Assembly: GCF_900167415.1 (NCBI RefSeq) | Contig: NZ_FUWU01000035.1 | Span: 1-34,428 of the forward strand | Length of the DNA: 34,428 nucleotides | Reading direction: 5' to 3' | DNA from: Fibrobacter intestinalis | GTDB taxonomy: Bacteria; Fibrobacterota; Fibrobacteria; Fibrobacterales; Fibrobacteraceae | Part shown: in pieces, positions 3,383-21,652 of the stretch | Layout: each line of letters starts with the position of its first letter | Position numbering within the stretch: the stretch's first letter is position 1 | The notes under the pieces: generated by a model | Database searches by the model: none | Seen by the model: only the letters and a program-made list of their open reading frames with translations | Told to the model about the DNA's origin: nothing | Made by a program: the position numbers and the translations under genes

Positions 3383-3527
3383 CCGCCGAAATCAAAGTAA
3401 TTGAGGGCGGTTAAACAAAATCTTTCCTTACCCCTTCAATACCATCGACAGCTTCGTTCCATCGAAAGCCTTGCCCCAGCCGTCTTCCTCAGAAAATTTG
3501 GAAAACGCGACCAGCTGAGGATCGGGT
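3383..3527. repeat. 145-bp direct repeat, copy B
   Basis: This is the partner of 2660-2804, 723 bases away and in the same orientation. It encodes the identical C-terminal 32 residues of the second immunity paralogue plus its downstream flank. Confidence 0.9.
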
Positions 3528-3955
3528 GGTTGAATTTTGTTGTTTTTAAGAATCGCTAGAATTTCATCAATATATTCGAGACTTGCCGTTCCGTATCCAG
3601 GAATACTGGAATAGGCGTATTCTTCTTCTATGTTTCGAATGGCAAGTAAAATCTTGTTCAAAGAATCGTCAACATTCTTGTACAATTTTTTAAGATTTGT
3701 GTAGGTTTCTTTATCTATGTATTCAAAATTAGACGCTTCGAAAGATTCAAACTCAAACAAGTATTTTGGGATGTATTCCATAATTTCCCAGGACCACCTG
3801 TCAAGTGCTTCGCAATTCCCAAATTTCCAAAATATTTTAAAAACTAGCGACCAGTCCCTTTGAGGGTATTTTTCTGTGGCAAGTTTTTCTGCACAAAGGA
3901 TTCCGTAAGCGATTCGCCCAAGAAGAGAAATGTTTTTCAATGCGTCCGATTTCAT
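3428..3955 (-). CDS. Putative immunity protein, paralogue 2, paired with a deaminase toxin
   Basis: The product has 175 residues and belongs to the same family as 2705-3241: MKSDALKNISLLGRIAYGIL at the start, 'RDWSLVFKIFWKF' early, 'IEEEYAYSSI' near the middle, and the shared C-terminal block ending SMVLKG. It starts 12 bases after the stop of the deaminase gene, with AAGGAG nine bases before the ATG, so the two genes are almost certainly co-transcribed and translationally coupled. That arrangement is the hallmark of polymorphic toxin-immunity pairs. Function as the cognate immunity protein is inferred from context. The first 140 residues differ substantially from paralogue 1 while the tail is identical, a pattern expected from recombination. 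Confidence 0.6.
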   Translation of the reverse strand: MKSDALKNISLLGRIAYGILCAEKLATEKYPQRDWSLVFKIFWKFGNCEALDRWSWEIMEYIPKYLFEFESFEASNFEYIDKETYTNLKKLYKNVDDSLNKILLAIRNIEEEYAYSSIPGYGTASLEYIDEILAILKNNKIQPPDPQLVAFSKFSEEDGWGKAFDGTKLSMVLKG

Positions 3956-3967
3956 CTCGTATTCTCC

Positions 3968-4462
3968 TTATTCTGTCCAACCAGTGTGATTCTTTTGGAT
4001 TCGTCCTTTGAACGCGTGTGTGCAATTTTGACAAGCTGGCTTTGGTTGGCCAAAGCTTTTAGGTGTTGTGTGTATGGTAAATATATAAAGATTCTCCATT
4101 TTTGCTCCAGAATTCAAAGCCTTGTTTATAGCATGAACTTCGGCACAATTGCCCAAGTCATATTTGTTGAGAGATTTTGGCGGTAATACACCATTTTCTC
4201 CAAAGATTTGGGGATTTCGAAGGTCGTTCTCTTGAAAAACCCCTCCATTTCTTCCATAGAAATACCTGCCAGATTCGTTGTCATAAACTATGGTCGCTGT
4301 ATTAAATTGATCCTTTTGACGTTCTGATTTTTTTCCTAAACGTTCTTTTTCGCCTATAGCCCATTCTTTTACTCGCGATTGCATGACCTTTGCATCACGA
4401 TGATAAGGGCTGTTCGCCGATCCTCTAGTTCCACTGAACAAACCACTTGCATCTTGACCCAT
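3968..4462 (-). CDS. Orphan polymorphic-toxin deaminase domain (YwqJ-like)
   Basis: The 164 residues carry the cytidine-deaminase-fold signature: 'GNCAEVHAINKAL', with Cys106 and catalytic Glu108, and 'KPACQNC' with Cys144 and Cys147 as the other zinc ligands. 'TATIVYDNESGRYFYG' before them fits the first strands. The spacing and the N-C-A-E motif fit YwqJ-like deaminase toxins, which are usually C-terminal domains of large secreted proteins and are thought to deaminate nucleic acids or nucleotides. Here there is no secretion or Rhs/LXG region; an in-frame stop lies 13 codons before the ATG, so the domain stands alone. It is either an orphan cassette awaiting recombination onto a toxin carrier or a decayed gene. 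Confidence 0.7.
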   Translation of the reverse strand: MGQDASGLFSGTRGSANSPYHRDAKVMQSRVKEWAIGEKERLGKKSERQKDQFNTATIVYDNESGRYFYGRNGGVFQENDLRNPQIFGENGVLPPKSLNKYDLGNCAEVHAINKALNSGAKMENLYIFTIHTTPKSFGQPKPACQNCTHAFKGRIQKNHTGWTE

Positions 4463-4619: not shown

Positions 4620-5099
4620 TCAACGAGAAATATTTTGTCGTTTTTTGTTTGGTTTATCCCTTGTATGTCCAGCTAATTCCTTCAAGTGGTTTTCCTTTAG
4701 CAGCATGTTTGCGGTCGGAATGTCGACGGAATCGTGTTTTTCCAGCAATACTTTATATACAATATGTTCCTTTGAGTTGCCAAGGCTTAATCCAGCTTTC
4801 TGAAGTATAGACATAGACGTAGAAAAGTCAACATTCAGATCAATTAAGAGTGCTATTAAGGTTCTATGCTCAAATTTATAGTCTTTGTTGTACTTAATCT
4901 TTGAAAAAGTAGATTCTGGTATTCCTGTTGATAAACTCAACGCCTTGACCTTTTCCCCATAGCCTCTAGCAACAATGAATTTCTGGATGCTTTCAGAAGC
5001 GGAATCGGTGGAGCAGAGGATAATATTTTGCGTATCAGACAATATCTGGGACACTGAATTCCTGAGTGAATTCAATATAATCTCATCATTTGTCTGCAT
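4620..5099 (-). CDS. HTH-domain DNA-binding protein
   Basis: The 159-residue product holds a helix-turn-helix region (KALSLSTGIPESTFSKIKYN), then 'RTLIALLIDLNVDFSTSMSILQKAGLSL', a pattern seen in a family of XRE-like regulators common on mobile elements, and a helical C-terminus with a basic end. ATG 5099 is preferred; a GTG three codons earlier is possible. It follows the DUF4417 gene by 15 bases on the same strand, so the two form a likely operon. Target and role are unknown. The gene is AT-rich compared with the ribosomal operon, in keeping with acquisition. Confidence 0.6.
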   Translation of the reverse strand: MQTNDEIILNSLRNSVSQILSDTQNIILCSTDSASESIQKFIVARGYGEKVKALSLSTGIPESTFSKIKYNKDYKFEHRTLIALLIDLNVDFSTSMSILQKAGLSLGNSKEHIVYKVLLEKHDSVDIPTANMLLKENHLKELAGHTRDKPNKKRQNISR

Positions 5100-5114: not shown

Positions 5115-5837
5115 TTACTTTGCAAAAAGAGGCAGGTCTGTTGCATCCTTTTTAATGGAGATTCGTGTGGAAATTTTATAGCCACGCTTTTCAACATTGT
5201 ACTCAACGACATCAACTCCTTTCATTTGGCAATATGCTTTCATGTCATTGGGCATTATACCAAAGAACAGTGTTGTTTTTGGTCGAATTTGGTCTATCAT
5301 TTTCTTTAATCCTTTGTAAAATACTTCTCGGGAATCTTGTTCACCTTGGCAACCGTAGGGACTGACGAATACACAGTCTGGATTTTCAATTCCGCAAAAC
5401 AAAAAGTTGTAACTATATTCATCCTTATCAAAACGCACCAGTGGAATAACGATCAACCCATTTTGCTGACAAAAGAATGTTAACGCTCTTGCAAAATAAA
5501 CCTGCGACAATTTCAATGCCCGCGGCATATCGTAATAGATGCTTAAATCAGGCGCAACCAAACCGGCAAATCGCTTGAGTCGCTTCAGATACCGTTTGGG
5601 GTTTCGTGTAAATGCGATAAACTTGTAATCGTTTTCAAAGAAGTGAACAAAATATCTTTCAGGATGCTTTGACGTAAATTTTTTTGAGATGGCGATAGAA
5701 AACGGCACCATCAAATCGGGTATAACCTCGGTATTTCCGACTAAAGGAATTTCATATTCTCCGCGAAATTCCGCACCTTTGACAAGATACGCTTGAAATA
5801 CATCTAGGCGCTTGTCTTTTTTCAATTTTACTGACAT
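5115..5837 (-). CDS. DUF4417 family protein
   Basis: The 240-residue product matches the DUF4417 family pattern: 'GEYEIPLVGNTEVIPDLMVPF' near the start, 'VHFFENDYKFIAFTRNPKRY', 'LKRFAGLVAPDLSIYYDMP', 'RALTFFCQQNGLIVIPLVR' and 'VFVSPYGCQGEQDSREVFYKGL'. Members are typical of phages and conjugative elements and have no established function. ATG 5837 is chosen because GGAGGG lies six bases upstream; an eight-codon-longer frame has no ribosome binding site. The 230 bases before the gene are unusually rich in inverted repeats. With the HTH gene downstream it forms a two-gene unit. Confidence 0.7.
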   Translation of the reverse strand: MSVKLKKDKRLDVFQAYLVKGAEFRGEYEIPLVGNTEVIPDLMVPFSIAISKKFTSKHPERYFVHFFENDYKFIAFTRNPKRYLKRLKRFAGLVAPDLSIYYDMPRALKLSQVYFARALTFFCQQNGLIVIPLVRFDKDEYSYNFLFCGIENPDCVFVSPYGCQGEQDSREVFYKGLKKMIDQIRPKTTLFFGIMPNDMKAYCQMKGVDVVEYNVEKRGYKISTRISIKKDATDLPLFAK

Positions 5838-5850
5838 GGAGTCCCTCCAA

Positions 5851-5895
5851 AATGACGACAAACAAAGACATCCCCGTAGGTCGTCATTCCTACGG
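5851..5895 (-). promoter_or_regulatory. Competing hairpins in front of the DUF4417 ribosome binding site
   Basis: In the minus-strand transcript, CCGTAGG (5895-5889) can pair with CCTACGG (5880-5874), and AATGACGAC (5888-5880) with GTCGTCATT (5859-5851). The second pair uses the loop of the first, so they are mutually exclusive or form a pseudoknot. The 3' arm of the second helix ends about three bases before the GGAGGG of DUF4417. This arrangement could control translation start; that is inference. Confidence 0.45.
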
Positions 5896-5910
5896 AGAAA
5901 GCCTTATTCT

Positions 5911-6069
5911 TTTGGAAAAGAAAAAGGCGTGGGGTCTGTGTGAACTTACTCCTTTCGAGGCTCTGGTAAACCTGCAACTAGCATAAGCACAAACGACCCA
6001 CGCCCAAATAGTGTGCGTAAGCATTCGTCTTATTCTCGCTAGTTGTGAAATTTACCAGATTTCGAAAAG
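5911..6069 (-). ncRNA. Candidate structured RNA or attenuator leader upstream of DUF4417
   Basis: Read on the minus strand, a long interrupted helix forms between 6069-6030 and 5987-5950: blocks TTTCGA, CTGGTAAA, CAACTAGC and ATAAG all pair with their complements. A second helix, GGCGTGGGTC (6004-5995) with GACCCCACGCC (5936-5926), starts in the loop of the first and encloses its 3' arm, so the two are pseudoknotted or alternative. The second helix is followed directly by TTTTTCTTTT (5925-5916), as in an intrinsic terminator. The region could be a small RNA ending there or a terminator/antiterminator leader for DUF4417. No known RNA family is recognised. The rest of the gap to 6286 shows no gene. 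Confidence 0.5.
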
Positions 6070-6286
6070 AGAGAACAAGAGTTAAATTCAAAATAATCGC
6101 CGACCAGATGTCAAAGAAAAATGACGATTTGGTCTATGTCATCAGGAAATATAGTTTTTTAGAATGTCAAGACAAGCAAAGGCACGTTATTGGTGCAAGC
6201 AAAATGATGTATTATAGAGTTTTAAGGAATCGTCCCAAAACGAGGGGGGTATCCCCATCACCCCATCATTCATCACAAACGAAATT

Positions 6287-7824: not shown

Positions 7825-8799
7825 TTAATCCTTCAAGTATTCATCGACGTTCATGCCAAAAGTAAGACCCATCGACGTCAATACCTCGTTAAGTTCAACC
7901 AAGGACTTCCGACCGAAGTTCTTGTATTTCAGCATATCCCCTTCCTTATTGCGGACAAGTTCTGCAATCGTATGGATGTTCGCCATACGGAGGCAGTTGC
8001 TGGAACGAACGGAAAGTTCAAGTTCGTCCACTCGCAAACGGAGGCGGCTGGCAATACGCTGACGTTCTTCATCCTGCACCGTTTCTTCCGGAGATTCGAG
8101 CTCTCCTTCAAAATTGATGAAGGCTTCCAAATGATCCACCAAAAGCTTTGCCGCATAAGCAAGAGCGTCTTCGGGGTCAATGGATCCGTCGGTCGTCACT
8201 TCCAGTTCCAGACGGTTGTAATCCGTTTTCTGTCCCACGCGGGTGTCGCTCACGTGCATCGCCACTTTCAAAACCGGGTTGAAGTTGGCGTCCATGGCGA
8301 TTTCACCGATAGGGGCGTCCGGATCCTTCAATTCGTCGGCAACCACATATCCGCGACCGGAAGAGACCTTGAGCTCCATGCTCAAAGAAGCGTTTCCAGA
8401 CAGCGTTGCGATATGAACGTCCGGGGTAAGGATCACCACGTTGGGATTCTCCTCGATGTTCGCAGCGGTGATTTCACCATCGCCCGACATATCCAAGCGA
8501 AGCGTTTCGTCATGATCGGAGAGCAGCTTTACACGAATGCTCTTCAAGTTCAGGATAATGTCCGTAACATCTTCCTTCACTCCCGGAATGGACGAAAATT
8601 CCTTTTCGACTCCGGCAATTTTTACGGAGACGATCGCAGCGCCTTGCAGCGAGGAAAGCAGCGTGCGGCGTAGAGCGTTACCGACAGTAATACCCCATCC
8701 GCGTTCCAGGGCTTCTACGACGAACTTCGCATAGCGCCCATTTTCACCGGTTTCCACTTTCTGGAAACTGCGCGGCATTTGGAGAGATTTCCACATCAT
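7825..8799 (-). CDS. rpoA: DNA-directed RNA polymerase subunit alpha
   Basis: The 324-residue product (E. coli 329) has the alpha N-terminal assembly domain ('GWGITVGNALRRTLLSSLQG' near residues 34-53) and the C-terminal DNA- and activator-binding domain ('NCLRMANIHTIAELVRNKEG', 'LKYKNFGRKSLVELNEVL'). The alpha dimer nucleates polymerase assembly. Two adjacent ATGs are possible starts; an AGGGG lies about nine bases upstream. It follows rpsK directly; rpsD, which usually separates them, is absent. Confidence 0.97.
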   Translation of the reverse strand: MMWKSLQMPRSFQKVETGENGRYAKFVVEALERGWGITVGNALRRTLLSSLQGAAIVSVKIAGVEKEFSSIPGVKEDVTDIILNLKSIRVKLLSDHDETLRLDMSGDGEITAANIEENPNVVILTPDVHIATLSGNASLSMELKVSSGRGYVVADELKDPDAPIGEIAMDANFNPVLKVAMHVSDTRVGQKTDYNRLELEVTTDGSIDPEDALAYAAKLLVDHLEAFINFEGELESPEETVQDEERQRIASRLRLRVDELELSVRSSNCLRMANIHTIAELVRNKEGDMLKYKNFGRKSLVELNEVLTSMGLTFGMNVDEYLKD

Positions 8800-8820
8800 T
8801 GGCGTTTTCCCCTGTTGATA

Positions 8821-9258
8821 TTAAACTTTTCTCTTCTTCTTGGGACGGCATCCGTTGTGCGGGACACCGGTCACATCACGAATCGTCAACACTTCGATAC
8901 CGACGTTCTTGATAGCACGGACAGCGGATTCACGTCCACCACCGGCACCTTTCACGCGGACATCGACCTTGCGAATGCCGAGGTCGTAGGCCTTGTGGGC
9001 GGCGGCTTCAGCAGCAAGCTGGGCGGCGAACGGAGTGCTCTTGCGGGAACCCTTGAATCCGGAATTTCCCGGAGAGCCCCAAGCGACAACGTTACCGTGC
9101 GCATCGGTGATCGACACAATCGTATTGTTGAAAGAAGCATTCACGCAGGCAATTCCCTGCACGTCAACACGCTTCTTACCTTTTTTAACCTTTTCCTCGG
9201 CGGGAGCAGCAGCTTCTGCAGCGGCCGGGGCGGTTTCTTTAACTTCTTCGTCTGCCAC
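8821..9258 (-). CDS. rpsK: 30S ribosomal protein S11
   Basis: Residues from about 30 on are typical S11 ('[20 protein letters not shown]', '[15 protein letters not shown]', and the conserved C-terminus '[17 protein letters not shown]'). The N-terminal 28 residues are an added low-complexity stretch of Ala, Glu, Pro and Lys, which brings the length to 145 against 129 in E. coli. S11 forms part of the platform and contacts the E-site mRNA region. It lies 11 bases after rpsM. Confidence 0.96.
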
Positions 9259-9269
9259 GGATCGTCTCC

Positions 9270-9638
9270 TTACTTCTTCTTGTTAGCAACGGTCTTCTTC
9301 GGGCCCTTGCGAGTGCGAGCGTTCGTACGGGTGCGCTGACCACGGACCGGCAACTTCTTCATGTGGCGGCTTCCGCGATAGCATCCGATATCTTGAAGGC
9401 GTTTGATGTTCAACGTCGTTTCTGCGCGAAGCTGACCTTCCACAGAATATTCGTCTTCAAGAACGTGACGAATCTTACCTTGTTCTTCTTCAGTCAGATC
9501 GTCGCACTTCTTCGTCTGATCGATGCCCAATTGAGCGCAGATCTTACGAGAGGTGAAAAGCCCGACTCCGTAGATAGCCGTCAGACCGTACTCGACAGTC
9601 TTGTTTTTCGGCAAATCGACACCAGCAATACGTGCCAT
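9270..9638 (-). CDS. rpsM: 30S ribosomal protein S13
   Basis: The 122-residue product starts [20 protein letters not shown] and contains '[12 protein letters not shown]', the helix-hairpin-helix-like part, and the basic tail '[17 protein letters not shown]' that contacts P-site tRNA. It makes intersubunit bridges with L5. It lies nine bases after rpmJ. Confidence 0.97.
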
Positions 9639-9646
9639 AAAATCTC

Positions 9647-9763
9647 CTAACCCTGTCTCTGCTTGTGACGGGGGTTCTTAGAACAGATGACGCGAAGAAT
9701 GCCCTTGCGACGGACAATCTTGCAGTTTTCACATCTTGGTTTGATGGAGGCTTTGATTTTCAT
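9647..9763 (-). CDS. rpmJ: 50S ribosomal protein L36, zinc-binding form
   Basis: A 38-residue frame encodes [20 protein letters not shown] followed by a run ending RHKQRQG. The Cys-x2-Cys, later Cys and His set is the zinc ribbon of the C+ form of L36. It binds 23S rRNA in the large subunit. The position between infA and rpsM is the normal one. Confidence 0.96.
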
Positions 9764-9783
9764 AGGTTAGACCTTTTTCCCTA

Positions 9784-10002
9784 TTACTTGTAACGGTAGG
9801 TGATTCTTCCGCGCGATAAATCGTACGGAGAGATTTCGACCAACACTTTGTCATCCGGCAAAATGCGGATAAAATGCCGGCGCATTTTCCCAGAAACATG
9901 AGCGAGAATTTCGTGACCATTTCCGAGGCCAACACGGAAGAATGCGTTGGGAAGAGCTTCCAGCACAACGCCTTCTACTTGAATGCCTTCTTCTTTAGCC
10001 AC
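9784..10002 (-). CDS. infA: Translation initiation factor IF-1
   Basis: The 72 residues (the same as E. coli) form a single OB-fold protein: [20 protein letters not shown], then '[20 protein letters not shown]' and the C-terminal '[12 protein letters not shown]'. IF-1 occupies the ribosomal A site during initiation. Its ATG overlaps the secY stop by one base, so the two are translationally coupled; adk and map, often found here, are absent. Confidence 0.97.
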
Positions 10003-11366
10003 TAGGATGCCATCCTGCCGCGAATGCGGCCATGTTTGAGGAAACCAGCGTAGTTATTGGTATGGAGATGGGCTTCGAGTTGACGAAGCGTGTCCAGCGC
10101 CACACCGACCACGATCAAGACCGAGGTGCCGCCAATATAGAAAGACATATTCAAAGCGTCTTTCAAATGCAGCGGACCGACACTGATTACAGCCAGGAAA
10201 ATGGATCCCGGAAGTGAAATGCGGGTCAAAATATGGTCAATATACTCAGCGGTCTTTTTTCCCGGACGAATGCCCGGAATGAAACCGCCCGACTTCTTGA
10301 GATTATCGGCAATGTCCGTTGGGTTGTATTGGATAGCCGTATAGAAGTAAGTAAAAAAGATAATCAGCGCGGCGAAGATTACGCTATAGGTGATATGTCC
10401 AGGAACGAATGCACCCGCAAAGGACTGCATCCAGCTCACGTTGGGCATCCACGAAGCGATAATCGCGGGCACGAACATAATGGAGGAAGCGAAAATGACT
10501 GGTATCACGCCGGCTGTATTCACCTTGAAAGGCAAATAACTGGCCTGACCGCCAACCACCTGATTTCGTCCGACCACCCTGCGCGGGCTTTCCAGCGGAA
10601 TACGACGAGTGGCCTGCTCCACGAATACGATGAAACCGACGATAGCAACCACAATCGCCAAGATGAAAATCTCGATGGCGAGCGGCTGAATGCCTTCGGT
10701 AAACATTTCGATTTCGCGAAGGAATGCCCTCGGAAGTCCGCCGACAATACCGGCAAAGATTATCAGGGAGATTCCGTTACCAACACCCTTTGCCGTAATT
10801 CTCTCGCCGAGATACATGACAAAGATGGTTCCTGTGGTGAAGGTAAGCGTAGCAAGTAACCGGAATCCGACATTGCCAAGCCCGGACTGGAATCCGTCCG
10901 TAAGCACAGAAATGCCCGTACCGGTTGCGGTGGAAACTGTTAAGCTCGAAAGCCAGACGGCAACACCCCAGCCCTGAAGAGCGCCGAGGAGAACCGTAAA
11001 GTAGCGCGTGTACTGATTCAGCCTTGCACGCCCTTCCTGGCCTTCTTTTTGAAGCATCTTGATCGCCGGAATCACAGAACCCATCAGCTGGATGAGAATG
11101 CTTGCGCTGATATACGGCATAATGCCCAAGGCAAAAACCGTAGCCTTAGCGAAAGCACCGCCGGTAAAGGAGTCGTACAAACCGAACATATTGTTGCTGT
11201 TTCGGAAATACTCCGCCAAAACCGTAGCGTCCACACCAGGAATGGTGATGTGCGAACCGATGCGATAAACAATGAGAATACCCAAGGTAAAGAGAATTCT
11301 TTTCCTCAGGTCTTCCATTTTGAAGGCGTTGACGAACCCGTCAATAGCTTTCTTAAGAACTTCCAT
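10002..11366 (-). CDS. secY: Protein translocase subunit SecY
   Basis: The 454-residue membrane protein shows the SecY pattern of ten transmembrane segments: '[12 protein letters not shown]' near the start, the plug/TM2 region '[20 protein letters not shown]', '[19 protein letters not shown]', '[19 protein letters not shown]', and the cytoplasmic loop and tail with '[20 protein letters not shown]'. It forms the protein-conducting channel of the inner membrane with SecE and SecG. It starts two bases after rplO. Confidence 0.98.
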
Positions 11367-11368
11367 TA

Positions 11369-11812
11369 TTAGACGAGCTCTACTTTGCCGCCGGCAGCTT
11401 CAACAGCCGCTTTGGCCTTTTCGCTGATAGCGTTGACTTTGAGAGTGACAGCCTTCGAAATCGTGCCGTAGCCCAAAACCTTGATCGGCTTCTTCACGCT
11501 GCGGACAAGACCCTGGTCGAAAAGAACCTTGGCGTCAAATTCGACAACACCGGAATTTTCAATGGCCTTGAGATTCACAATCTGCGTATCCTTCGGGAAC
11601 TGCGACTTGAATCCGCGCTTCGGGATACGACGGTGAATCGGCATCTGGCCGCCTTCAAAAGCAGCCCGACCAGCCTTGGCGCTCTTACGAGCACCGGCAC
11701 CTTTCTGACCACGACCGCCAGTCGTGCCCCAACCGGAACCCGGACCGCGGCCAATGCGCTTGCGCCCCTTAGTCAGAGCACTCTTAGCAGGATTGATACT
11801 ATTGAGTTGCAT
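11369..11812 (-). CDS. rplO: 50S ribosomal protein L15
   Basis: The 147 residues include the Gly- and Arg-rich N-terminus 'KRIGRGPGSGWGTTGGRGQK' and the conserved C-terminal domain ending 'EAAGGKVELV'. L15 is a late-assembly large-subunit protein with an extended N-terminus buried in 23S rRNA. It starts two bases after rpmD. Confidence 0.97.
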   Translation of the reverse strand: MQLNSINPAKSALTKGRKRIGRGPGSGWGTTGGRGQKGAGARKSAKAGRAAFEGGQMPIHRRIPKRGFKSQFPKDTQIVNLKAIENSGVVEFDAKVLFDQGLVRSVKKPIKVLGYGTISKAVTLKVNAISEKAKAAVEAAGGKVELV

Positions 11813-11814
11813 GA

Positions 11815-11994
11815 TTAAATTTCCTCGACCTTGATCATGTGACGGACAGCATTGATGATGCCCTGAATAGCCGGAGTCAAAGTCATTTCATTAGAGGTTC
11901 CAATTCCATGAAGTCCCAAGGACGCAATATTGGCCCGGTGCTTCGGAAGAGAATGGATAAGCCCCTTGACTTGGGTAATTCTTACTTTTTTCAT
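11815..11994 (-). CDS. rpmD: 50S ribosomal protein L30
   Basis: The 59-residue frame encodes MKKVRITQVKGLIHSLPKHR then 'ANIASLGLHGIG' and 'TPAIQGIINAVRHMIKVEEI', matching L30 over its full usual length. The ATG lies eight bases after the rpsE stop, and the order rpsE-rpmD-rplO is standard. Confidence 0.95.
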   Translation of the reverse strand: MKKVRITQVKGLIHSLPKHRANIASLGLHGIGTSNEMTLTPAIQGIINAVRHMIKVEEI

Positions 11995-12002
11995 TTTAGA
12001 CC

Positions 12003-12485
12003 TCAGGCGTTCTGACCGCGCAAAGCCGCGTAGTCATTTTTGTTCTTCTGCGTCGTGAGACCTTCGATGCAGGCTTGCACCACAGTGCTCGGATTGGAAG
12101 AACCATAGATCTTGGTAAGAATGTTGTGGACACCGGCGAGTTCCAAAACAGCACGGGCTGCAGCGCCGGCAATAACGCCAGTACCGGGAGCGGCGGGGAT
12201 CAAGCGGATGCGGGTTGCGCCGTACTTGATTTCCACATCGTGCGGAATGGTTCCGTCTTGAACATTCACTTCGATAAGATTGCGTTGAGCAGCCTCGGTT
12301 CCCTTGCGGATAGCTTCGGAGACTTCCTTAGCCTTGCCGAGCCCCACACCAATTTTGCCTTTCTTGTTGCCAACGACAACGAGAGCACTGAAGGACATCC
12401 GACGGCCACCCTTCACAGTCTTGGCACAGCGATTGATGTGCACAACTCTGTCTTCAAATTCAGAAACTTGTGTTTCGCGTTCCAA
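12003..12485 (-). CDS. rpsE: 30S ribosomal protein S5
   Basis: The 160-residue product has the N-terminal double-stranded-RNA-binding-like domain ('FEDRVVHINRCAKTVKGGRR', 'VGLGKAKEVSEAIRKG') and the C-terminal domain ('IPAAPGTGVIAGAAARAVLE', 'GVHNILTKIYGSSNP'). A TTG start at 12485 is preferred: AAGAGG lies just upstream, the resulting N-terminus (MERETQVSEF) matches family length, and it leaves an 11-base gap to the end of rplR. A longer frame runs into rplR and is unlikely. S5 helps maintain decoding accuracy near the mRNA entry. Confidence 0.93.
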   Translation of the reverse strand: MERETQVSEFEDRVVHINRCAKTVKGGRRMSFSALVVVGNKKGKIGVGLGKAKEVSEAIRKGTEAAQRNLIEVNVQDGTIPHDVEIKYGATRIRLIPAAPGTGVIAGAAARAVLELAGVHNILTKIYGSSNPSTVVQACIEGLTTQKNKNDYAALRGQNA

Positions 12486-12495
12486 AGTGTACCTC

Positions 12496-12867
12496 TTAGA
12501 ATTGGAGTCCGCCTTCACGAGCTCCCTCAGCGAGAGCCTGAACGCGACCATGATAAATGAAACCACCGCGGTCGAAGACAACGGCAGAAATGCCCTTGGC
12601 CTTCGCAGCGTCGGCAATGAGATTTCCGAGTTTCTTGCTCTGTTCGGTCTTGGAAAGCTCACCGAACTTCGCCTGGAAGTCCTTGGACGAAGTCGTTACC
12701 TGAACCAAAGAGGTGTGAGAAACATCGTCGATGATCTGAGCGATCATATTAGACAGCGTACGACGAACAGCGAGACGCGGACGTTCGGGGGTACCGCTGA
12801 CGGTCTTGCGAACACGCGCATGACGCGCAATTCTGGACTCGAGTCTTTTCTTTGCAATAGCAGTCAT
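12496..12867 (-). CDS. rplR: 50S ribosomal protein L18
   Basis: The 123 residues include '[20 protein letters not shown]', '[16 protein letters not shown]' and the C-terminal '[20 protein letters not shown]', the typical 5S-rRNA-binding signature. With L5 it anchors 5S rRNA in the central protuberance. It lies nine bases after rplF. Confidence 0.97.
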
Positions 12868-12876
12868 AACGTTACC

Positions 12877-13416
12877 TTATTTACCTGTCTTCTTGCCCTG
12901 CTTACGGCGGATGATTTCACCAGCATACTTGACGCCCTTGCCCTTATACGGTTCAGGACGACGATACTTGCGAATTTCTGCGGCAGCTTGACCAACTTTC
13001 TGCTTGTCAATACCCTTGATGGAAATCTTCAGAGGATCGACAGCCTTCAATTCAATGCCTTCCGGAGCCTTGTAGATGACCGGGTGGGAGAATCCGAGGA
13101 CGAGGTTCAAGTCCTTGCCCTTCTGTTCCACACGATAACCGACACCGACAATTTCCAGGTTCTTTTCAAAACCTTTGGAAACGCCTTCGACCATGTTCGC
13201 CACCAAGGCACGGGTCGTGCCGTGAATCGAACGGGTGAACTTCAAATCGTCCGGACGTTCAAACGAAAGCTGGTTGCCATCCAATTTAATCTTGATGAGG
13301 TCGTGAACCTTGGTAAAAAGCTTGCCGAGCTTGCCTTCCACCTGAATGTTCTGACCATCCACTGCGACTTTCACGTCGGCAGGGATATGAATAATTGCTT
13401 TTCCGATACGAGACAT
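12877..13416 (-). CDS. rplF: 50S ribosomal protein L6
   Basis: The 179-residue product starts MSRIGKAIIHIPADVKVAVD and has the conserved L6 signature near its end ('RKYRRPEPYKGKGVKYAGE'). Its two related domains lie close to the factor-binding site of the large subunit. Length equals the family norm and it starts seven bases after rpsH. Confidence 0.97.
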   Translation of the reverse strand: MSRIGKAIIHIPADVKVAVDGQNIQVEGKLGKLFTKVHDLIKIKLDGNQLSFERPDDLKFTRSIHGTTRALVANMVEGVSKGFEKNLEIVGVGYRVEQKGKDLNLVLGFSHPVIYKAPEGIELKAVDPLKISIKGIDKQKVGQAAAEIRKYRRPEPYKGKGVKYAGEIIRRKQGKKTGK

Positions 13417-13423
13417 CTTTACC

Positions 13424-13816
13424 TCACCAGACCTTTGCGATGACTTCGCCGCCCACGTTTTCTTTGCGAGCTTCGTGGTCGGTCATCACACCTTTGGATG
13501 TGGAGATAATAGCATAGCCAAGTCCGTTACGAACGCGCGGGAGCTTCGCGACATCGCTGTAGATGCGGAGACCCGAGCGGCTGACGCGCTGGATGCCTTG
13601 GATAGCCGGAACGCCGTTTGTGTAGCGAAGGAGAATTTTGAGGATTCCCTGCTTGCCATCTTCAACGACGACGAACTTTTTAATAAAACCTTTTTCCTGC
13701 AGAACGCGGGCGATTTCGCGCTTCTCGTTGCTGGCAGGGATGTCCACCACAGGCGCCTTTGCCGAAACGGCATTGCGGATGCGGGTGAGCATATCGGCGA
13801 TTGTATCTGTTGCCAT
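13424..13816 (-). CDS. rpsH: 30S ribosomal protein S8
   Basis: The 130 residues, the same as E. coli, show 'DTIADMLTRIRNAVSAKAPV' and the C-terminal signature 'GLGYAIISTSKGVMTDHEAR'. S8 binds the central domain of 16S rRNA early in assembly. In E. coli S8 is the autoregulator of the spc operon by binding mRNA near rplE; no equivalent site was identified here. Confidence 0.97.
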   Translation of the reverse strand: MATDTIADMLTRIRNAVSAKAPVVDIPASNEKREIARVLQEKGFIKKFVVVEDGKQGILKILLRYTNGVPAIQGIQRVSRSGLRIYSDVAKLPRVRNGLGYAIISTSKGVMTDHEARKENVGGEVIAKVW

Positions 13817-13829
13817 TGTTTAATGCTCC

Positions 13830-14015
13830 TTACCAGGAAGATTTGGTGATGCCCGGGATTTCACCGGCGAGTGCCATTTCGCGGAAGCAAATACGGCACA
13901 GTCCAAAGCGACGCATATAAGCGTGCGGCCGACCGCACCGCTTGCAGCGATGATAACCGCGAACGGTGTATTTCGGGGTGCGTTTGCACTTTTCGATCAT
14001 TCTTCTGCTTGCCAT
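13830..14015 (-). CDS. rpsN: 30S ribosomal protein S14, zinc-binding form
   Basis: The 61-residue product is the short zinc-type S14: '[20 protein letters not shown]' and '[20 protein letters not shown]' supply two Cys-x2-Cys pairs. It binds the head of the small subunit. The long non-zinc form is not seen in this window. Confidence 0.97.
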
Positions 14016-14023
14016 GGTATACC

Positions 14024-14566
14024 TTACTTCCTGAAGGGGAGACCGAGACCTTCGAGCAGAGCACGTCCTTCTTCATCCGTTGCAGCGGAAGTGACGAAAG
14101 AAATGTCCATACCGAGAGTCTGCGTAATTTTGTCGATGTCGATTTCCACAAAAATCGATTGTTCCTTGATGCCGAGCGTATAGTTGCCGCAGCCGTCAAA
14201 ACCGCGACGCGGGAGACCTCGGAAGTCACGCACACGCGGCAAGGAAATGTTGATAAAACGATAGAGGAAATCCCACATATTTTCGCCGTGCAAAGTCACC
14301 TTGGCACCAATTCCAAGACCTTCGCGGAGCTTGAAGTTGGAAATCGCCTTGCGAGCTTTCGTGACAACCGGTTTCTGACCGGTAATCGCGGCGAGAGTGC
14401 TGAGGGCTTCGTCCAGAACCTTACGGTTAGAAGCGGCTTCGCCAACACCCATATTGATAACGATTTTCTGCAGACGCGGAATCTGCATCACGTTCTTGTA
14501 ACCGAATTTCTGCTTGAGAGCCGGAACTACGGTCTTTTCGTAAACATCTTTCTTCATAGTGCTCAT
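14024..14566 (-). CDS. rplE: 50S ribosomal protein L5
   Basis: The 180-residue product has '[20 protein letters not shown]', '[20 protein letters not shown]' and '[20 protein letters not shown]', all canonical for L5. It binds 5S rRNA and forms the intersubunit bridge to S13. Start at the first ATG is assumed; a second Met four codons later is possible. Confidence 0.97.
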
Positions 14567-14576
14567 AGTTACGACC

Positions 14577-14882
14577 TCACAGAGCCTTTCCGGACTTGAC
14601 GCTTACGCGAACGCTCTTCTTACCGGCTTCACGAACGCGACGAGTACGAACAGGAGTGGAACCTTCGAGGAGCATCGCGTTGGAGATATCGATCGGAAGT
14701 TCCTTTTCGACGATACCGCCCGCCTGATTGGTACGGCTCGGCTTTTCATGACGCTTGTGAACGTTCACGCCGGCGACGATGATGCGGCCTTTTTTCGGAT
14801 CAACGCTTAACACAACACCGGTCTTGCCCTTGTGAGCACCGGAGATAACCTTGACGTTATCATTCTTTTTAATGTTAGACAT
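14577..14882 (-). CDS. rplX: 50S ribosomal protein L24
   Basis: The 101 residues contain the KOW motif at the start ('[20 protein letters not shown]') and '[20 protein letters not shown]'. L24 initiates large-subunit assembly and lies near the exit tunnel. The start codon overlaps the end of rplN by one base. Confidence 0.97.
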
Positions 14883-15250
14883 TAGAGCACCTCGGGTGCG
14901 AGAGAGATGATCTTTGTGAAATTGTGCTCACGAAGTTCACGGGCAACAGGTCCAAAGATACGGGTTCCACGGGGTTCGCCATCTTTCGTTACGAGAACGA
15001 CAGCGTTGTCGGAAAAACGAATAAATGTTCCGTCCTTACGACCGATTTCTTTACGGGTGCGGACCACGACAGCATCTGCGACAGAGCCTTTCTTCACCTT
15101 GCTCTGGGGGATAGCGTCTTTGACAGCTACCTTGATGATATCCCCGATGCTTGCATAGCGCCGGTTAGATCCACCCAAAACTCGGATGCAGGCGACTTCT
15201 TTCGCGCCGCTGTTGTCGGCCACGACCAGTCTTGTTTCTTCTTGAATCAT
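14882..15250 (-). CDS. rplN: 50S ribosomal protein L14
   Basis: The 122-residue product begins [20 protein letters not shown] and has '[20 protein letters not shown]' and '[20 protein letters not shown]', the full L14 pattern. L14 sits at the subunit interface and contacts helix 44 of 16S rRNA. Confidence 0.98.
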
Positions 15251-15274
15251 AGTTTTCGCCTTACTCCAGAAGGA

Positions 15275-15529
15275 TTACTTCTTCTTTGCCACAATCCGAA
15301 CCAAGCGCCAACGCTTTGTCGCGGAAAGGGGACGGGTTTCCATAATTTCCACGGTATCGCCAACTTCGGCTTCATTCTTTTCATCATGAGCCTTGAATTT
15401 AGCCGTGGATTTCATGATCTTGTTGTAAATCGGGTGACGCTTGCGGTCTTCGACCACAACCGTAATCGTCTTGTCCATCGCATTGGACGAAACGATACCC
15501 TGTCTCACTTTGCGAGAGTTTCTTTCCAT
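15275..15529 (-). CDS. rpsQ: 30S ribosomal protein S17
   Basis: The 84 residues match the OB-fold S17: '[20 protein letters not shown]' and '[20 protein letters not shown]', ending '[13 protein letters not shown]'. It is an early-binding protein of the 16S 5' domain and lies 17 bases after rpmC. Confidence 0.97.
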
Positions 15530-15546
15530 TTTCTGCTCCTGCCGGC

Positions 15547-15741
15547 TTAAGCCTTGGCCCTTTCGGTAAGAATCGTCTTGACCCGAGCGATATCCTTGCG
15601 GATCGAACGAGCCGTCACAGGCTTTTCTGCGCTGTTTCCGGTTTTCGCAGAGAACCGGTTGTTGAACAAATCCAGATTAAACTGGGCGAGTTTTTCTTTG
15701 AGCTGTTCTGTGCTCAATTCTCTGAGTTCGCGTGCTTTCAT
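15547..15741 (-). CDS. rpmC: 50S ribosomal protein L29
   Basis: The 64-residue helical hairpin protein begins [20 protein letters not shown] and contains '[16 protein letters not shown]'. It lies at the tunnel exit, where it forms part of the chaperone docking site. Its ATG overlaps the rplP stop by one base. Confidence 0.96.
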
Positions 15742-16154
15742 CAGATCTCCGAAGCCTCCACGATTTTAACTTTAATCGGCAGCTTCTGCGATGCTTCGCG
15801 AAGCGCTTTAATGGCAAGGTCACGGTCCACACCGTCCATTTCGAACATGATGCGACCCGGGAGAACCACTGCAGCCCAGAATTCAACGGCACCTTTACCT
15901 TTACCCATACGGGCTTCGGCAGGGTGACGGGTTACCGGCTTGTTCGGGAAAATGCGGATCCAGATGTGACCGCCACGCTTGATAGTACGAGACATCGCAA
16001 TACGGGCAGCTTCAATCTGGCGTGCTGTAATCCAGCACTTTTCGAGAGCCTGCAGACCATATTCGCCAAAAGCGATAGTGTCGCCGCTGGTCGCACGTCC
16101 CTTCATGCGGCCTTTCTGTTCTTTGCGGAACTTTGTTCTTTTAGGACTCAGCAT
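15741..16154 (-). CDS. rplP: 50S ribosomal protein L16
   Basis: The 137 residues begin [20 protein letters not shown] and include '[20 protein letters not shown]' and '[16 protein letters not shown]', the standard L16 signatures. L16 lines the A-site tRNA elbow-binding region near the peptidyl transferase centre. It starts two bases after the rpsC stop. Confidence 0.98.
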
Positions 16155-16156
16155 AA

Positions 16157-16822
16157 TTACTTCTCTCTCTTAGGTTCAGACGACAAGACGTCCTTGCCAA
16201 TCTTTTCGCCGTGCATGATCCAGACCTTGACTCCGACAGAACCGTAAACGGTCTTTGCGGTAGCTGTGGCATAGTCAATATCGGCACGAAGGGTGTGCAG
16301 AGGAACGCGACCTTCCGCATACTTTTCAACGCGGGCGATTTCGGCACCGCCGAGACGGCCACCGCATTGAATCTTGATGCCTTCGATGCCCATGCGCATA
16401 GCGCTCTGCATCGCACGCTTCATCGCGCGGCGGAAAGAAACACGCTTTTCAAGCTGGCGAGCAATGTTTTCTGCAACCAACTTCGCATCTGCTTCCGGAC
16501 GCTTGATTTCGTGGACGCTAATATAGATTTCTTTTCCGGTGAGATATTGGAGTTCGCTCTTCAAGCGATCCAATTCTTCGCCCTTTTTGCCAATCACGAC
16601 ACCCGGACGGGCGGTGAAAAGATTTACGTTCACTTTCTTGACGGTGCGTTCGATGCCGACCTTAGCCAGGGAGGCGTGTTCAAAACGCTTCATCAGGTAG
16701 CGACGAAGAACAATATCCTCATAGAGGAAATCGGCGAACTTATCATCTTTGGCATACCACTTAGACTGCCAATCATCGATGACGCCGAGACGAAGACCAT
16801 ACGGATGAGTTTTCTGACCCAT
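16157..16822 (-). CDS. rpsC: 30S ribosomal protein S3
   Basis: The 221-residue product starts [20 protein letters not shown], has a KH domain ('[20 protein letters not shown]') and the C-terminal signature '[20 protein letters not shown]' and '[13 protein letters not shown]'. S3 forms part of the mRNA entry channel and its helicase. It is slightly shorter than the 233 residues in E. coli because of a shorter tail. Confidence 0.98.
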
Positions 16823-16825
16823 AGT

Positions 16826-17182
16826 TTACTCCTTATCAGCGTTGTCAGCAACAACGACGGTCAAGTGAGACAACGGTTTTGCGATGCGGTCGGCACTTCC
16901 GTGAGAACGCGGACGCATACGCTTCATGATGGTCGCTCCATCGGCGGCAATCATATCGATTCTGAGTTCTTCCGTAACGACGGCACCCGAAGCCTTCTGC
17001 TTGAAATTCGCGACGGCGGACTTCAGAGCGTTTTCAACAATGGGAGCACCCTTCTTCTTATTGTGAAGAATGGAGAGCATGGCGAAAGCCTGATCAACAG
17101 ACTTGCCGCGCACCAGATCCGCAACCAGACGGAGCTTGCGAACACCATAACGGATATTCTTTACTTTTGCTGTAGCTTTCAT
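16826..17182 (-). CDS. rplV: 50S ribosomal protein L22
   Basis: The 118 residues contain 'RYGVRKLRLVADLVRGKSVD' and the beta-hairpin region 'TIMKRMRPRSHGSADRIAKP', which reaches into the exit tunnel and is the site of macrolide-resistance changes in other species. The ATG overlaps the rpsS stop by one base. Confidence 0.97.
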   Translation of the reverse strand: MKATAKVKNIRYGVRKLRLVADLVRGKSVDQAFAMLSILHNKKKGAPIVENALKSAVANFKQKASGAVVTEELRIDMIAADGATIMKRMRPRSHGSADRIAKPLSHLTVVVADNADKE

Positions 17183-17463
17183 TACTTGCTTCCTCCTGCG
17201 GCTTCAGCCTTGCGGTGACCGCGGAAGATACGAGTGGGAGAAAATTCACCGAGTTTATGGCCAACCATGTTTTCCGTTACATAAACCGGAATGAACTGCT
17301 TGCCATTGTACACGGCAAAAGTCAAACCGACCATATCGGGGATGATGGTAGAACGACGGGACCAGGTCTTGATGGGCTGCTTCTTGTCGGAGCTTGCCAT
17401 AGCCTTGGTCTTGACCAAAACGTGGGAATCCACGAAAGCACCTTTCTTAAGGGATCTCGACAT
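17182..17463 (-). CDS. rpsS: 30S ribosomal protein S19
   Basis: The 93-residue product begins [20 protein letters not shown] and has '[20 protein letters not shown]' and '[20 protein letters not shown]', matching S19 along its length. It lies in the small-subunit head and bridges to L5. It starts three bases after rplB. Confidence 0.98.
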
Positions 17464-17466
17464 AGC

Positions 17467-18300
17467 TTATGCCCTCTTCTTCTGGCGACGACGCACAATA
17501 TAATGGTCGGTACGCTTGTTGTTACGAGTTTTCTTACCCTTGGAGTTCTTACCCCACGGAGAGCAGGGGTGACGGCCACCGGAGGTTCGACCTTCACCAC
17601 CACCGAGCGGGTGATCCACCGGGTTCATCACGACACCACGGACAGACGGACGAATGCCGAGCCAGCGAGAACGGCCAGCAGAACCGGAATTCTCGTTCAT
17701 GTGGTCCACATTGGAAACCTGGCCGACTGTAGCCAAAGCATCTTCCGGAATCAGACGGATTTCGCCACTCGGAAGCTTGACCTGGCAAAGCTTGCCATCC
17801 TTGGCAACCAGTTCCGCACAGGCACCGGCAGAACGAGCGATCTGAGCGCCCTTGCCCGGAATCATTTCAATGTTGTGAATCGTCGCGTTCAGCGGAATGT
17901 CCTTCAACGGAAGGGCGTTGCCAAGACGGTATTCGGCACCTTCACCAGAATTGAGGACGTCTCCGACTTTGATTCCCGCAGGCGCAATGATATATTGACG
18001 CTTGCCATCGATATACTTGACGAGGGCAATGTATGCGGAACGGTTCGGATCGTATTCAATCGTTTCAACGGTGCAGGAAATGCCCGCGCGTTTACGTTTG
18101 AAGTCAATAATACGGTAGGATCTCTTGTGTCCACCGCCACGACGACGAGAGGTGATTTCACCTACGTTGCTGCGGCCAGAGCTACGCTTTTTTCCGACGG
18201 TAAGAGGCTTATACGGCTTGTCAGCGGTAATTTCCTTCTTATCGTTCAACTGCTTGTAACGCAGAGTCGGGGTAAGCGGTCTATAACTTTTCAGACCCAT
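17467..18300 (-). CDS. rplB: 50S ribosomal protein L2
   Basis: The 277 residues (E. coli 273) begin [20 protein letters not shown] and include '[20 protein letters not shown]', the SH3-like core, and the C-terminal '[20 protein letters not shown]' with the conserved His region needed for peptidyl transferase integrity. AAGGAG lies within the last codons of rplW just before the ATG. Confidence 0.98.
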
Positions 18301-18302
18301 GG

Positions 18303-18605
18303 TTACACTCCTTCTAACTCGGCAATTTTATTGCCGGCCTGCAAAGTGATGTAGGCTTTCTTCCAGTTGGACTTTTTGCCTACAGCAGTGCGTACTCGTT
18401 TCATCTTGCCGCGGTTGATCAAGGTATTGACCGAATCGACCTTTACATTGAAACGGGATTCGATTGCGTTCTTGATTTCCTGCTTGGTAGCGGAAAGACC
18501 GACCTTGAATACATACTTGCGGACACCCGTGCGCGGGTTTACCATATTCTTCGAAGAACTTTCGGTAATGTGCGGTTCTTTCAGAATTTCATGGAGTTCT
18601 TTCAT
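18303..18605 (-). CDS. rplW: 50S ribosomal protein L23
   Basis: The 100-residue product has '[20 protein letters not shown]', '[20 protein letters not shown]' and '[17 protein letters not shown]', typical L23. It is the main docking site for trigger factor and SRP at the tunnel exit. It overlaps the end of rplD by four bases. Confidence 0.97.
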
Positions 18606-19225
18606 CTGGAGCCTCCAGTGAGTTCACCCAGGGCATCCTGGGAAATCGCGATATTGTTAGCGCGGACAAGATCGTAAGTATTCACGTCCTGAACGCGAGC
18701 TGTACGAACCCAAGGAACGTTAGCCGACGAGAGACGGAGATTCTTATCGTTCGAGCCGACCAAGAAGAGGGCGTTACGCTGTTCGAGTCCAGCTTTCTTG
18801 ACCACCGAGAGGAAATCCTTCGTCTTCGGTGCGTCAAAGGACAGGCTTTCGAACACGAGAACCTTGCCTTCTTGGGCCTTATCGGAAAGAGCGGAATGGA
18901 AAGCGAGACGCTTGACCTTCTTGTTCACCTTTTCGAAGTAGTCATGGGATTTCGGACCATGAGCCTTGTTACCACGAACCCACACGGCAGAAGTATTCTG
19001 ACCAGCGCGAGCGCGACCAGTTCCCTTTTGCTTCCAGGGCTTTGTCGTACCGCCGCTGACTTGAGAACGGGTCTTGGTCTGGGCAGTTCCCTGACGGAGG
19101 TTGTTGAGAATCGCCTTGATGTGCAGATAAATGCAGACCTTATTCACTTCTGTGTCAAACACAGCAGGAAGATCTATTTCGTTTTTGAATTCGCCGCTAG
19201 CGGCGTAGAGCTTAGCCTTTGCCAT
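18602..19225 (-). CDS. rplD: 50S ribosomal protein L4
   Basis: The 207 residues include the conserved extended loop 'VSGGTTKPWKQKGTGRARAG' and 'VWVRGNKAHGPKSHDY', which reaches the exit tunnel, and the C-terminal globular domain. In E. coli L4 also represses the S10 operon through its leader RNA; here tuf and the tRNAs occupy the region where that leader would lie, so such control is not evident. The start overlaps the rplC stop by one base (TAATG). Confidence 0.97.
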   Translation of the reverse strand: MAKAKLYAASGEFKNEIDLPAVFDTEVNKVCIYLHIKAILNNLRQGTAQTKTRSQVSGGTTKPWKQKGTGRARAGQNTSAVWVRGNKAHGPKSHDYFEKVNKKVKRLAFHSALSDKAQEGKVLVFESLSFDAPKTKDFLSVVKKAGLEQRNALFLVGSNDKNLRLSSANVPWVRTARVQDVNTYDLVRANNIAISQDALGELTGGSR

Positions 19226-19842
19226 TAGCCTTTCCTCACCACGATGACTCCGTTCTTCGGGCCAGGAACAGCGCCGCGAACAAAAATCAAATTGCGGTCA
19301 CTGTCCACCTTAACCACCTGGAGATGCTTGACGGTGACCTTCTTGTTACCATACTGACCTGCCATCTTCTTACCCGGGAAAACACGACCCGGATAGGAGT
19401 GAGCAGAAAGACCGCCCGGTTCACGCATATTGTGAGTGCCGTGACCACGGGGACCGCTGTGGAAATTGTAGCGCTTGATCGTGCCGGAAAAACCGTGACC
19501 CTTGGAAATACCAGAGACGTCAACCATTTTCACTTCGGCGAAATCCGCAGCTCCGAATTCCTTGCCAATCGGCCAATCTTCAAGATTTTCCACGTCAAAT
19601 TCAGCGAGGTAACCACGAACGTCGAGGTTAGCCTTTTTGAAATGTCCAATGGTCGCCTTGTCGGCACGCGATTCCTTGATTAAGCCAAAACCGACCTGAA
19701 TGGCGGTATAGCCGTCTTTTTCTTCTGTCTTGTGGCAAACGACCACGCACGGACCGGCTTCGAGAACCGTTACAGGAACGCATTCTCCGTTATCCGTGAA
19801 TACTTGGGTCATTCCCAGCTTTTTTGCAAGAATACCGTTCAT
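19225..19842 (-). CDS. rplC: 50S ribosomal protein L3
   Basis: ATG 19842 is chosen: it begins [20 protein letters not shown], the usual L3 N-terminus, with AAGGTG about ten bases upstream, four bases after the rpsJ stop. A frame ten codons longer runs into rpsJ and is not supported. The product of 205 residues has the conserved '[20 protein letters not shown]' and '[15 protein letters not shown]' segments. L3 is an assembly initiator near the peptidyl transferase centre. Confidence 0.96.
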
Positions 19843-19846
19843 TGTA

Positions 19847-20155
19847 TTACACCTTAATTTCGACATCAACACCTGCGGGCAATTCCAATTTCATCAGGGA
19901 ATCGACCGTCTGCGGAGTAGCGTCCAGAATGTCAATCAAGCGTTTGTGGGTACGGGATTCAAACTGTTCCCGAGAAGTCTTATTGACGTGTGGAGAACGG
20001 AGAATCGTGTACTTTTGAATCTTAGTTGGGAGAGGGATAGGACCCGCAATGCGGGCTCCCGTATTCTTAGCCGTATTTACAATATCTTGAGCAGAACGAT
20101 CAAGCATACGATGATCGAAGCACTTCAAGGAAATACGAATGTGTTCACCAGCCAT
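19847..20155 (-). CDS. rpsJ: 30S ribosomal protein S10
   Basis: The 102-residue product shows '[20 protein letters not shown]', '[20 protein letters not shown]' and '[20 protein letters not shown]', the complete S10 pattern. Besides its place in the small-subunit head, S10 acts in transcription antitermination with NusB. It lies nine bases downstream of tuf, so both share one transcript. Codon use is mixed at the third position, in contrast to tuf. Confidence 0.98.
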
Positions 20156-20164
20156 TGTTATTCC

Positions 20165-21349
<1,185 letters not shown>

Positions 21350-21374
21350 AAAACATAGCCTCCGAATTGTTAAG

Positions 21375-21446
<72 letters not shown>

Positions 21447-21450
21447 ATTA

Positions 21451-21477
21451 CTCCCCTGCCGCATTCACGGCAGGGGA
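21451..21477 (-). promoter_or_regulatory. Perfect hairpin between tRNA-Tyr and tRNA-Thr
   Basis: CTCCCCTGCCG and CGGCAGGGGAG (11 bp, no mismatch) flank a six-base loop. No T tract follows, so it is unlikely to be a strong terminator. It may be an RNase processing site for the tRNA precursor or a remnant. Confidence 0.6.
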
Positions 21478-21488
21478 GATTTGAAACG

Positions 21489-21571
21489 TGGGCCGTCGTG
21501 GTTTCGAACCACGGTAGACGTAAGTCAACGGATTTACAGTCCGTCCCCTTTAACCACTCGGGCAACGACCC
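21489..21571 (-). tRNA. tRNA-Tyr (GTA anticodon)
   Basis: The minus strand gives an 83-base class II tRNA: acceptor GGGTCGT with ACGGCCC, anticodon stem ACGGA/TCCGT with loop CTGTAAA, a long variable arm, and T loop TTCGAAA. The anticodon GTA reads tyrosine codons. No CCA is encoded. Confidence 0.95.
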
Positions 21572-21579
21572 ATTTGTCA

Positions 21580-21652
21580 AGCCAAAGATAGGAATCGAAC
21601 CTACGACCGGCTGATTACAAATCAGCTGCTCTACCAGCTGAGCTACTTTGGC
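21580..21652 (-). tRNA. tRNA-Thr (TGT anticodon)
   Basis: The minus strand folds with acceptor GCCAAAG/CTTTGGC, anticodon stem GCTGA/TCAGC with loop TTTGTAA, and T loop TTCGATT. The anticodon TGT reads ACA and ACG threonine codons. It is the first gene of the tRNA-tuf-ribosomal protein transcript. Confidence 0.95.

Follow-up and report, generated by a model that had tools for sequence, protein, structure and literature searches.

Restriction-modification genes need careful expression, and the known controls of these genes are mainly protein-based. Attenuators are a known kind of regulation, and the leaders of processive antitermination (boxA/Nus, EAR, LoaP and put RNA) are placed before long or accessory operons. 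We know of no report of one structured RNA that many restriction-modification operons have in common as a leader. Structured RNAs neutralise AbiF (PMC12373285).

Here, we analyzed a 34,428-nucleotide stretch of Fibrobacter intestinalis DNA (referred to as the window), in which an operon encoding DUF4417 and helix-turn-helix (HTH) proteins had been proposed to lie behind a pseudoknotted leader with the layout of an attenuator. This leader is one copy of many of a previously undescribed RNA family, an earlier description of which was not found in the literature searched. Bacteria of the Fibrobacter type have up to about 25 copies in one genome. Judging from its sequence and predicted folds, the leader RNA probably decides between an early stop and continued transcription of the genes that follow.

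Architecture of the leader

The leader spans about 6087-5916 on the minus strand, 5' of the DUF4417 gene. The long interrupted helix of the original prediction consists of three blocks (6070-6062/5958-5949, 6058-6051/5970-5963 and 6045-6038/5982-5975), and the leader also holds an inner hairpin, with 6028-6015 paired with 6003-5989. The interleaved pairing joins GGCGTGGGTC (6004-5995) to GACCCCACGCC (5936-5926) and is followed by TTTTTCTTTT (5925-5916). Helix and interleaved pairing were thus both recovered where they had been placed, and the fold is far beyond chance, with z scores of -5.8 (161 nt) and -7.1 (301 nt) and no shuffle matching it. A further helix that the prediction had not included (6079-6071 with 6037-6029) belongs to the switch. 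The parts of the leader, named as they are used below, are as follows, all on the minus strand.

6147-6153, minus strand: promoter-like TATATTT, 5' of the RNA
6102-6134, minus strand: optional 5' hairpin GACCA...TGGTC, read from the sequences without covariation statistics
6071-6079, minus strand: A5 (CUUGUUCUC), 5' arm of hairpin A (fold 2), partner 6037-6029
6062-6070, minus strand: D5, outer helix of fold 1, partner 5958-5949
6047-6063, minus strand: H1, a conserved GAAAU/AUUUC stem with the loop CUGGUAA (block C), loop partner 5970-5963
6038-6045, minus strand: B5 (CAACUAGC), inner helix of fold 1, partner 5982-5975
6029-6037, minus strand: A3 (GAGAAUAAG), 3' arm of hairpin A or, in its alternative role, putative antiterminator extension
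6015-6028, minus strand: F5 (ACGAAUGCUUACGC), 5' arm of the putative antiterminator hairpin F, partner 6003-5989
5984-6005, minus strand: F3 or T5+E5 (GGGCGUGGGUCGUUUGUGCUUA), shared as 3' arm of F or 5' arm of the candidate terminator; the most conserved core
5949-5983, minus strand: Y, comprising B3, H2 (GG...CC stem with a complementary loop) and D3; assessed by X:Y duplex energies
5916-5948, minus strand: E3, T3 (UAAGUUCACACAGACCCCACGCC) and U-tract, 3' arm and tail of the candidate terminator; E and T 95-96% paired, with double changes
5844-5895, minus strand: second hairpin/pseudoknot and Shine-Dalgarno GGAGG; hairpin kept in the homologous locus L013, pseudoknot partly

From 5' to 3', the order is therefore TATATTT, the optional hairpin, A5, X, A3, F5, a loop, F3 (identical to T5+E5), Y, E3, T3 and the U-tract, where X stands for D5, hairpin H1 (loop C5) and B5, and Y for B3, hairpin H2 (loop C3) and D3. 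In fold 1, helices D, C and B link X to Y, with F inside; in fold 2, hairpin A5:A3 forms together with the T/E terminator stem, whose loop contains H2. The two folds have segments in common and are mutually exclusive. The optional 5' hairpin is absent from many copies; in L013 and L022 its sequences differ, yet they pair. The loop of F is either empty or holds an insert of about 60-200 nt. In long copies, such as L102 and L104, this insert has conserved parts of its own (CAGUUUGUC...GGCAACAGCCC) with apparent covariation, and it could be a sensor module that is missing from the short form.

A second helix set had been proposed at the ribosome binding site. It is present, as a hairpin (5895-5889/5880-5874) and a pseudoknot (5887-5881/about 5858-5852), but in the closest homologue, L013, the hairpin alone is kept, while the pseudoknot is down to 5 bp. 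This set is not a family feature of the leader RNA.

A recurrent RNA family with two competing folds

With at most 3 mismatches allowed, the core GGGCGTGGGNCGTTTGTGCTTAT has 18 matches in the genome from which the window comes, against none for a reversed pattern used as control. Family searches were made with a covariance model, R1, which found 32 matches in this genome, about 25 of them strong, and matches in 95 of the 168 genomes of the phylum Fibrobacterota. Strong matches are found in four genera of the Fibrobacteraceae, and sister genera have none or single weak ones. Weak matches in three other families of the phylum form a diverged subfamily of the same architecture, in which both sides had changed in 19 of 48 pairs among 8 sequences. 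As the model of this subfamily, R2, retrieves Fibrobacteraceae copies with E values down to 1e-14, the two RNAs are related. A search of Rfam 15 yielded nothing at the gathering cut-off except tRNAs and, with lax filters over 5830-6200, no match at E <= 1. The leader was not matched in a plasmid collection, and of 6 exact core matches in viral contigs none holds the RNA by the model; a phage or plasmid origin was thus rejected.

Conservation of the helices before other DUF4417 genes, which the original prediction had named as a check, was found in two genomes. In L013, a locus of a Fibrobacterales MAG, a leader nearly identical to that of the window precedes a 73% identical DUF4417 protein, and in genome G017 a leader with compensatory changes precedes a 45% identical one. 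G017 has a second copy 5' of hsdM, in a type I restriction system.

Covariation was assessed in about 120 copies overall; 110 served for ranking X:Y pairs, 102 for helices D, C and B, and 86 for A and F. It should be noted that some of the genomes are related, so that the copies cannot be counted as independent; this has little effect on the X:Y rank test but does affect the gene tallies given below. For fold 1, the X:Y duplex has a mean energy of -28.0 kcal/mol with its own partner and of -10.3 kcal/mol with the Y of other copies; its own Y ranked first of 110 in 95 cases and among the top four in all. Helices D, C and B, of 6-7 bp each, are almost perfect in 102 distinct RNAs, with D averaging 6.2 bp (19 G-U against 3 A-C) and C, formed by the H1 loop with 5970-5963, being nearly all Watson-Crick. 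Hairpin F shows 90% standard pairs in 86 copies. Most of its positions do not vary, and the case for its pairing is therefore made by conservation together with a single pair that clearly covaries.

For fold 2, the terminator helices T and E and the competing 5' hairpin A both covary. Taken together, A, T and E show double changes in 17 of 28 pairs, with 95.6% of cells paired, and helix A by itself has 96% standard pairs among 86 copies and double changes in 6 of 9 pairs. None of 500 shuffles reached any of the five measures used, and slid partners were 43-59% paired. These three helices contain 476 G-U against 27 A-C combinations, an excess which places the selection on the RNA strand and not on a DNA palindrome. 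As in an intrinsic terminator, the G+C-rich T/E stem is followed by a U-tract before the gene, with 95-96% pairing across the aligned copies, and as in an antiterminator, hairpin F and T have GGGCGUGGGU in common. The predicted energies of the two folds are nearly equal, with an average gap of 5 of about 80 kcal/mol; in the window copy, the minimum free energy (MFE) structure prefers fold 1.

Placement and downstream genes

The leader lies between a promoter-like motif and a gene. TATAWT was found 5' of 62% of 121 copies in what was a crude scan (38% of copies are without it), at 20-40 or 60-80 nt before the start of the model, two preferred distances that correspond to copies lacking or carrying the 5' hairpin. 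The 79 gaps between U-tract and start codon contain no such motif. In 97% of copies, an ORF of at least 150 aa follows on the same strand within 450 nt, as compared to 34% for upstream-divergent ORFs, and in 97% the long ORF starts 50-420 nt past the U-tract. An ORF of at least 8 codons preceded by a Shine-Dalgarno sequence occurs in 10 of 122 leaders, against 45-56 after shuffling. As such ORFs are depleted in the leaders, among which a leader peptide is not conserved, attenuation by a leader peptide was rejected.

The RNA is dispersed before unrelated genes. Among 118 downstream proteins, some of which match more than one family, Pfam assigns N6_Mtase to 15, C5 methylase to 12, Eco57I to 12, N6_N4 to 8, EcoRI methylase to 7, HsdM_N to 7, D12 to 4 and the Tsp45I restriction enzyme to 3, as well as FISUMP to 11 and DUF4417 to 4; in addition, the anti-phage names MADS2, DS11 and ProA come from NCBIfam. 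A count by residue motifs gives 52 methyltransferases, including most of the EcoRI-type ones. Roughly half of the downstream genes are thus DNA methyltransferases of type I, II and III restriction-modification systems, the remainder being restriction enzymes, defence candidates, FISUMP or lipoproteins and DUF4417, proportions that are indicative only, as the copies are the best-scoring matches from partly related genomes. Copies are often found in tandem and adjoining horizontally mobile genes. In the genome of the window, the leader is found at about 3 of roughly 17 C5-methyltransferase genes. Three subtypes associate with different genes:

Long form, CAAC-type terminator: 30 copies, before type II methyltransferases or restriction enzymes
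Long form, ACGA-type terminator: 29 copies, before lipoproteins, FISUMP and membrane proteins
Short form (as in the window): 57 copies, before type I, III and IIG systems and DUF4417

Long CAAC copies usually have a second, partial 5' half before the gene. In L068-L165, this partial copy (A5-H1-A3) lies 45-150 nt past the terminator, before the methyltransferase start, and has at its end, close to the start codon, a conserved GAGAGTGAACTCGTTCACTTTCA hairpin. The partial 5' half could compete with the first copy for the 3' half.

In the window, the leader heads the following operon, which is found directly behind rpoA and the ribosomal protein cluster:

5115-5837, minus strand: DUF4417 protein, 240 aa (PF14386, E 2.4e-39, 135 bits against a cut-off of 28.9)
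4620-5099, minus strand: HTH protein, 159 aa (weak match to HTH_26, E 0.03)
3968-4462, minus strand: YwqJ-like deaminase, 164 aa (PF14431, E 6e-5, under the curated cut-off)
3428-3955, minus strand: 175-aa partner protein (no Pfam match)

Of the DUF4417-HTH operon as proposed, the DUF4417 assignment is firm and the HTH assignment is plausible, its match being weak. The order of leader, DUF4417, HTH, deaminase and 175-aa protein is also found in L013 and G017. The HTH gene has a homologue at the same place in G017, and a similar ORF follows DUF4417 in L013; the deaminase is 80% identical in L013 and 59% in G017, and the 175-aa protein 74% identical in L013, with gene order kept. The deaminase and the 175-aa protein (3428-4462), which stand behind DUF4417-HTH in three genomes and are without a secretion domain, look like a toxin/immunity pair, the 175-aa protein possibly being the immunity protein. 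The notion of an RNA-controlled accessory system is supported to the extent that the gene follows a regulatory RNA not described before and is the first of an operon kept in three genomes.

The genome of the window (3.3 Mb) contains 11 scattered DUF4417 matches, mostly without the leader, so the window operon is one client of the RNA and not its owner. A leader specific to DUF4417 was rejected, since the RNA precedes many unrelated genes, chiefly of restriction-modification. Three of the 11 matches lie within 4 kb on one contig (C30), and the DUF4417 family may be mobile or defence-related. Its predicted structure is of fair quality (pLDDT 80.6), but the best PDB matches, TIM-barrel-like folds among others, have E values of 0.017 or worse, and no function is therefore claimed. 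PADLOC gave no match for DUF4417 and its partners. Elsewhere in the window are the cluster of ribosomal protein, secY, rpoA and tuf genes with tRNA-Thr, Tyr and Thr (7828-21652), and the C-terminal part of a C5-cytosine methyltransferase (33422-34129; PF00145 is matched over positions 269-323 only), which may be the remnant of a gene or have a start that was missed.

A putative attenuator and the nearest known systems

The best explanation, to which we assign a probability of roughly three in four, is that the leader acts in cis to attenuate transcription, by way of two folds that exclude each other and are nearly equal in predicted energy, and represents a new family of the Fibrobacterota. 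The attenuator layout of the original prediction is strongly supported by the covariation in about 120 copies and by the placement of promoter-like motif and gene; termination itself and a regulated choice of fold are what we infer from them. The RNA would be transcribed from the promoter just 5' of it. In fold 1, the antiterminator, the 5' half X would be joined to the 3' half Y by D, C and B, and the probable shape is a four-way junction with kissing H1 and H2 loops; F would then hold GGGCGUGGGU, the terminator would be blocked and the polymerase would continue into the gene. In fold 2, the terminator, hairpin A would form and free the F arm, and GGGCGUGGGUCGUUUGUGCUUA would build a long stem with the downstream UAAGUUCACACAGACCCCACGCC, followed by U5, and transcription would stop some 80 nt short of the start codon.

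As D, B and C vary freely among the copies of one genome, a common trans-acting factor presumably reads the invariant core (A5, F5 and F3/T5) in all of them. Given the restriction and defence genes that follow the RNA, a plausible signal would be one tied to infection, to the methylation of DNA or to the state of growth. In a speculative extension, which we consider unlikely, the RNA would respond to the same cue across the Fibrobacterota, be it infection, DNA damage, the methylation state of DNA or a small molecule, and would switch many restriction-modification and other defence operons on or off together. If true, this switch class would serve the phylum as an RNA-based master controller of its immune repertoire. 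A single biological theme is not established, because one subtype often precedes lipoproteins or FISUMP and not defence genes.

An unlikely alternative is that the leader is static and only one fold matters, either as a platform for an antitermination or stability factor or as a built-in partial terminator. The GCUCUU core in A5 is boxA-like, a protein could bind at the extremely conserved core, and the fold 1 preference of the window copy would agree with such a role; covariation in the helices of both folds is, however, needless for a static RNA. The rRNA leaders of relatives contain a ACCTTTAGAAAA-like sequence and not GCTCTTATTC, in a stretch that may not be the true rrn boxA, and this comparison does not support a boxA/Nus reading. 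A search for 16S in the genome of the window found none. Considerably less probable is a trans-acting RNA, in which the terminated leader of about 170-240 nt would be an RNA antitoxin or sRNA and the terminator would set the ratio of RNA to mRNA. Type III systems share the layout of promoter, structured RNA, terminator and gene, and AbiF is a precedent (PMC12373285), but the competing antiterminator is kept in all copies, tandem repeats of a toxin-binding unit are absent, and dozens of unrelated families follow the RNA. A DNA element, such as an attC-like folded single-stranded recombination site or mobile-element end spread with accessory cassettes, would account for dispersed, repeated and often tandem copies beside horizontally mobile genes, but is very hard to reconcile with structure that holds while sequences diverge and with the fixed places of the U-tract and promoter-like motif, and its palindrome or attC form was rejected by the G-U bias.

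A structured RNA common to dozens of unrelated restriction and accessory operons of one phylum would be a new control route. The leader would mark defence genes, making unannotated downstream genes candidates, and, as a well-defined bistable RNA, its signal can now be searched for directly.

The putative attenuator compares with known systems as follows. It resembles attenuating riboswitches and other attenuators in having a promoter, a 5' leader, exclusive terminator and antiterminator hairpins, a U-tract and a gene behind. Unlike attenuating riboswitches, it is without a known ligand or an Rfam match, both folds are very large, its two halves are joined by three paired blocks, flanked by conserved hairpins, and unrelated genes share the RNA. 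With the ribosome-mediated trp and his attenuators, it shares alternative leader hairpins that end at an intrinsic terminator, but it is without their leader peptide. Like type III toxin-antitoxin systems and AbiF, it places a structured RNA and terminator before defence-type genes; the RNA is, however, bistable, single and non-repeat, and instead of one toxin family it is followed by many families, mainly methyltransferases. Finally, it shares with processive antitermination leaders the position of an RNA ahead of long or accessory operons and differs from them in that the Fibrobacter RNA has a terminator/antiterminator pair of its own.
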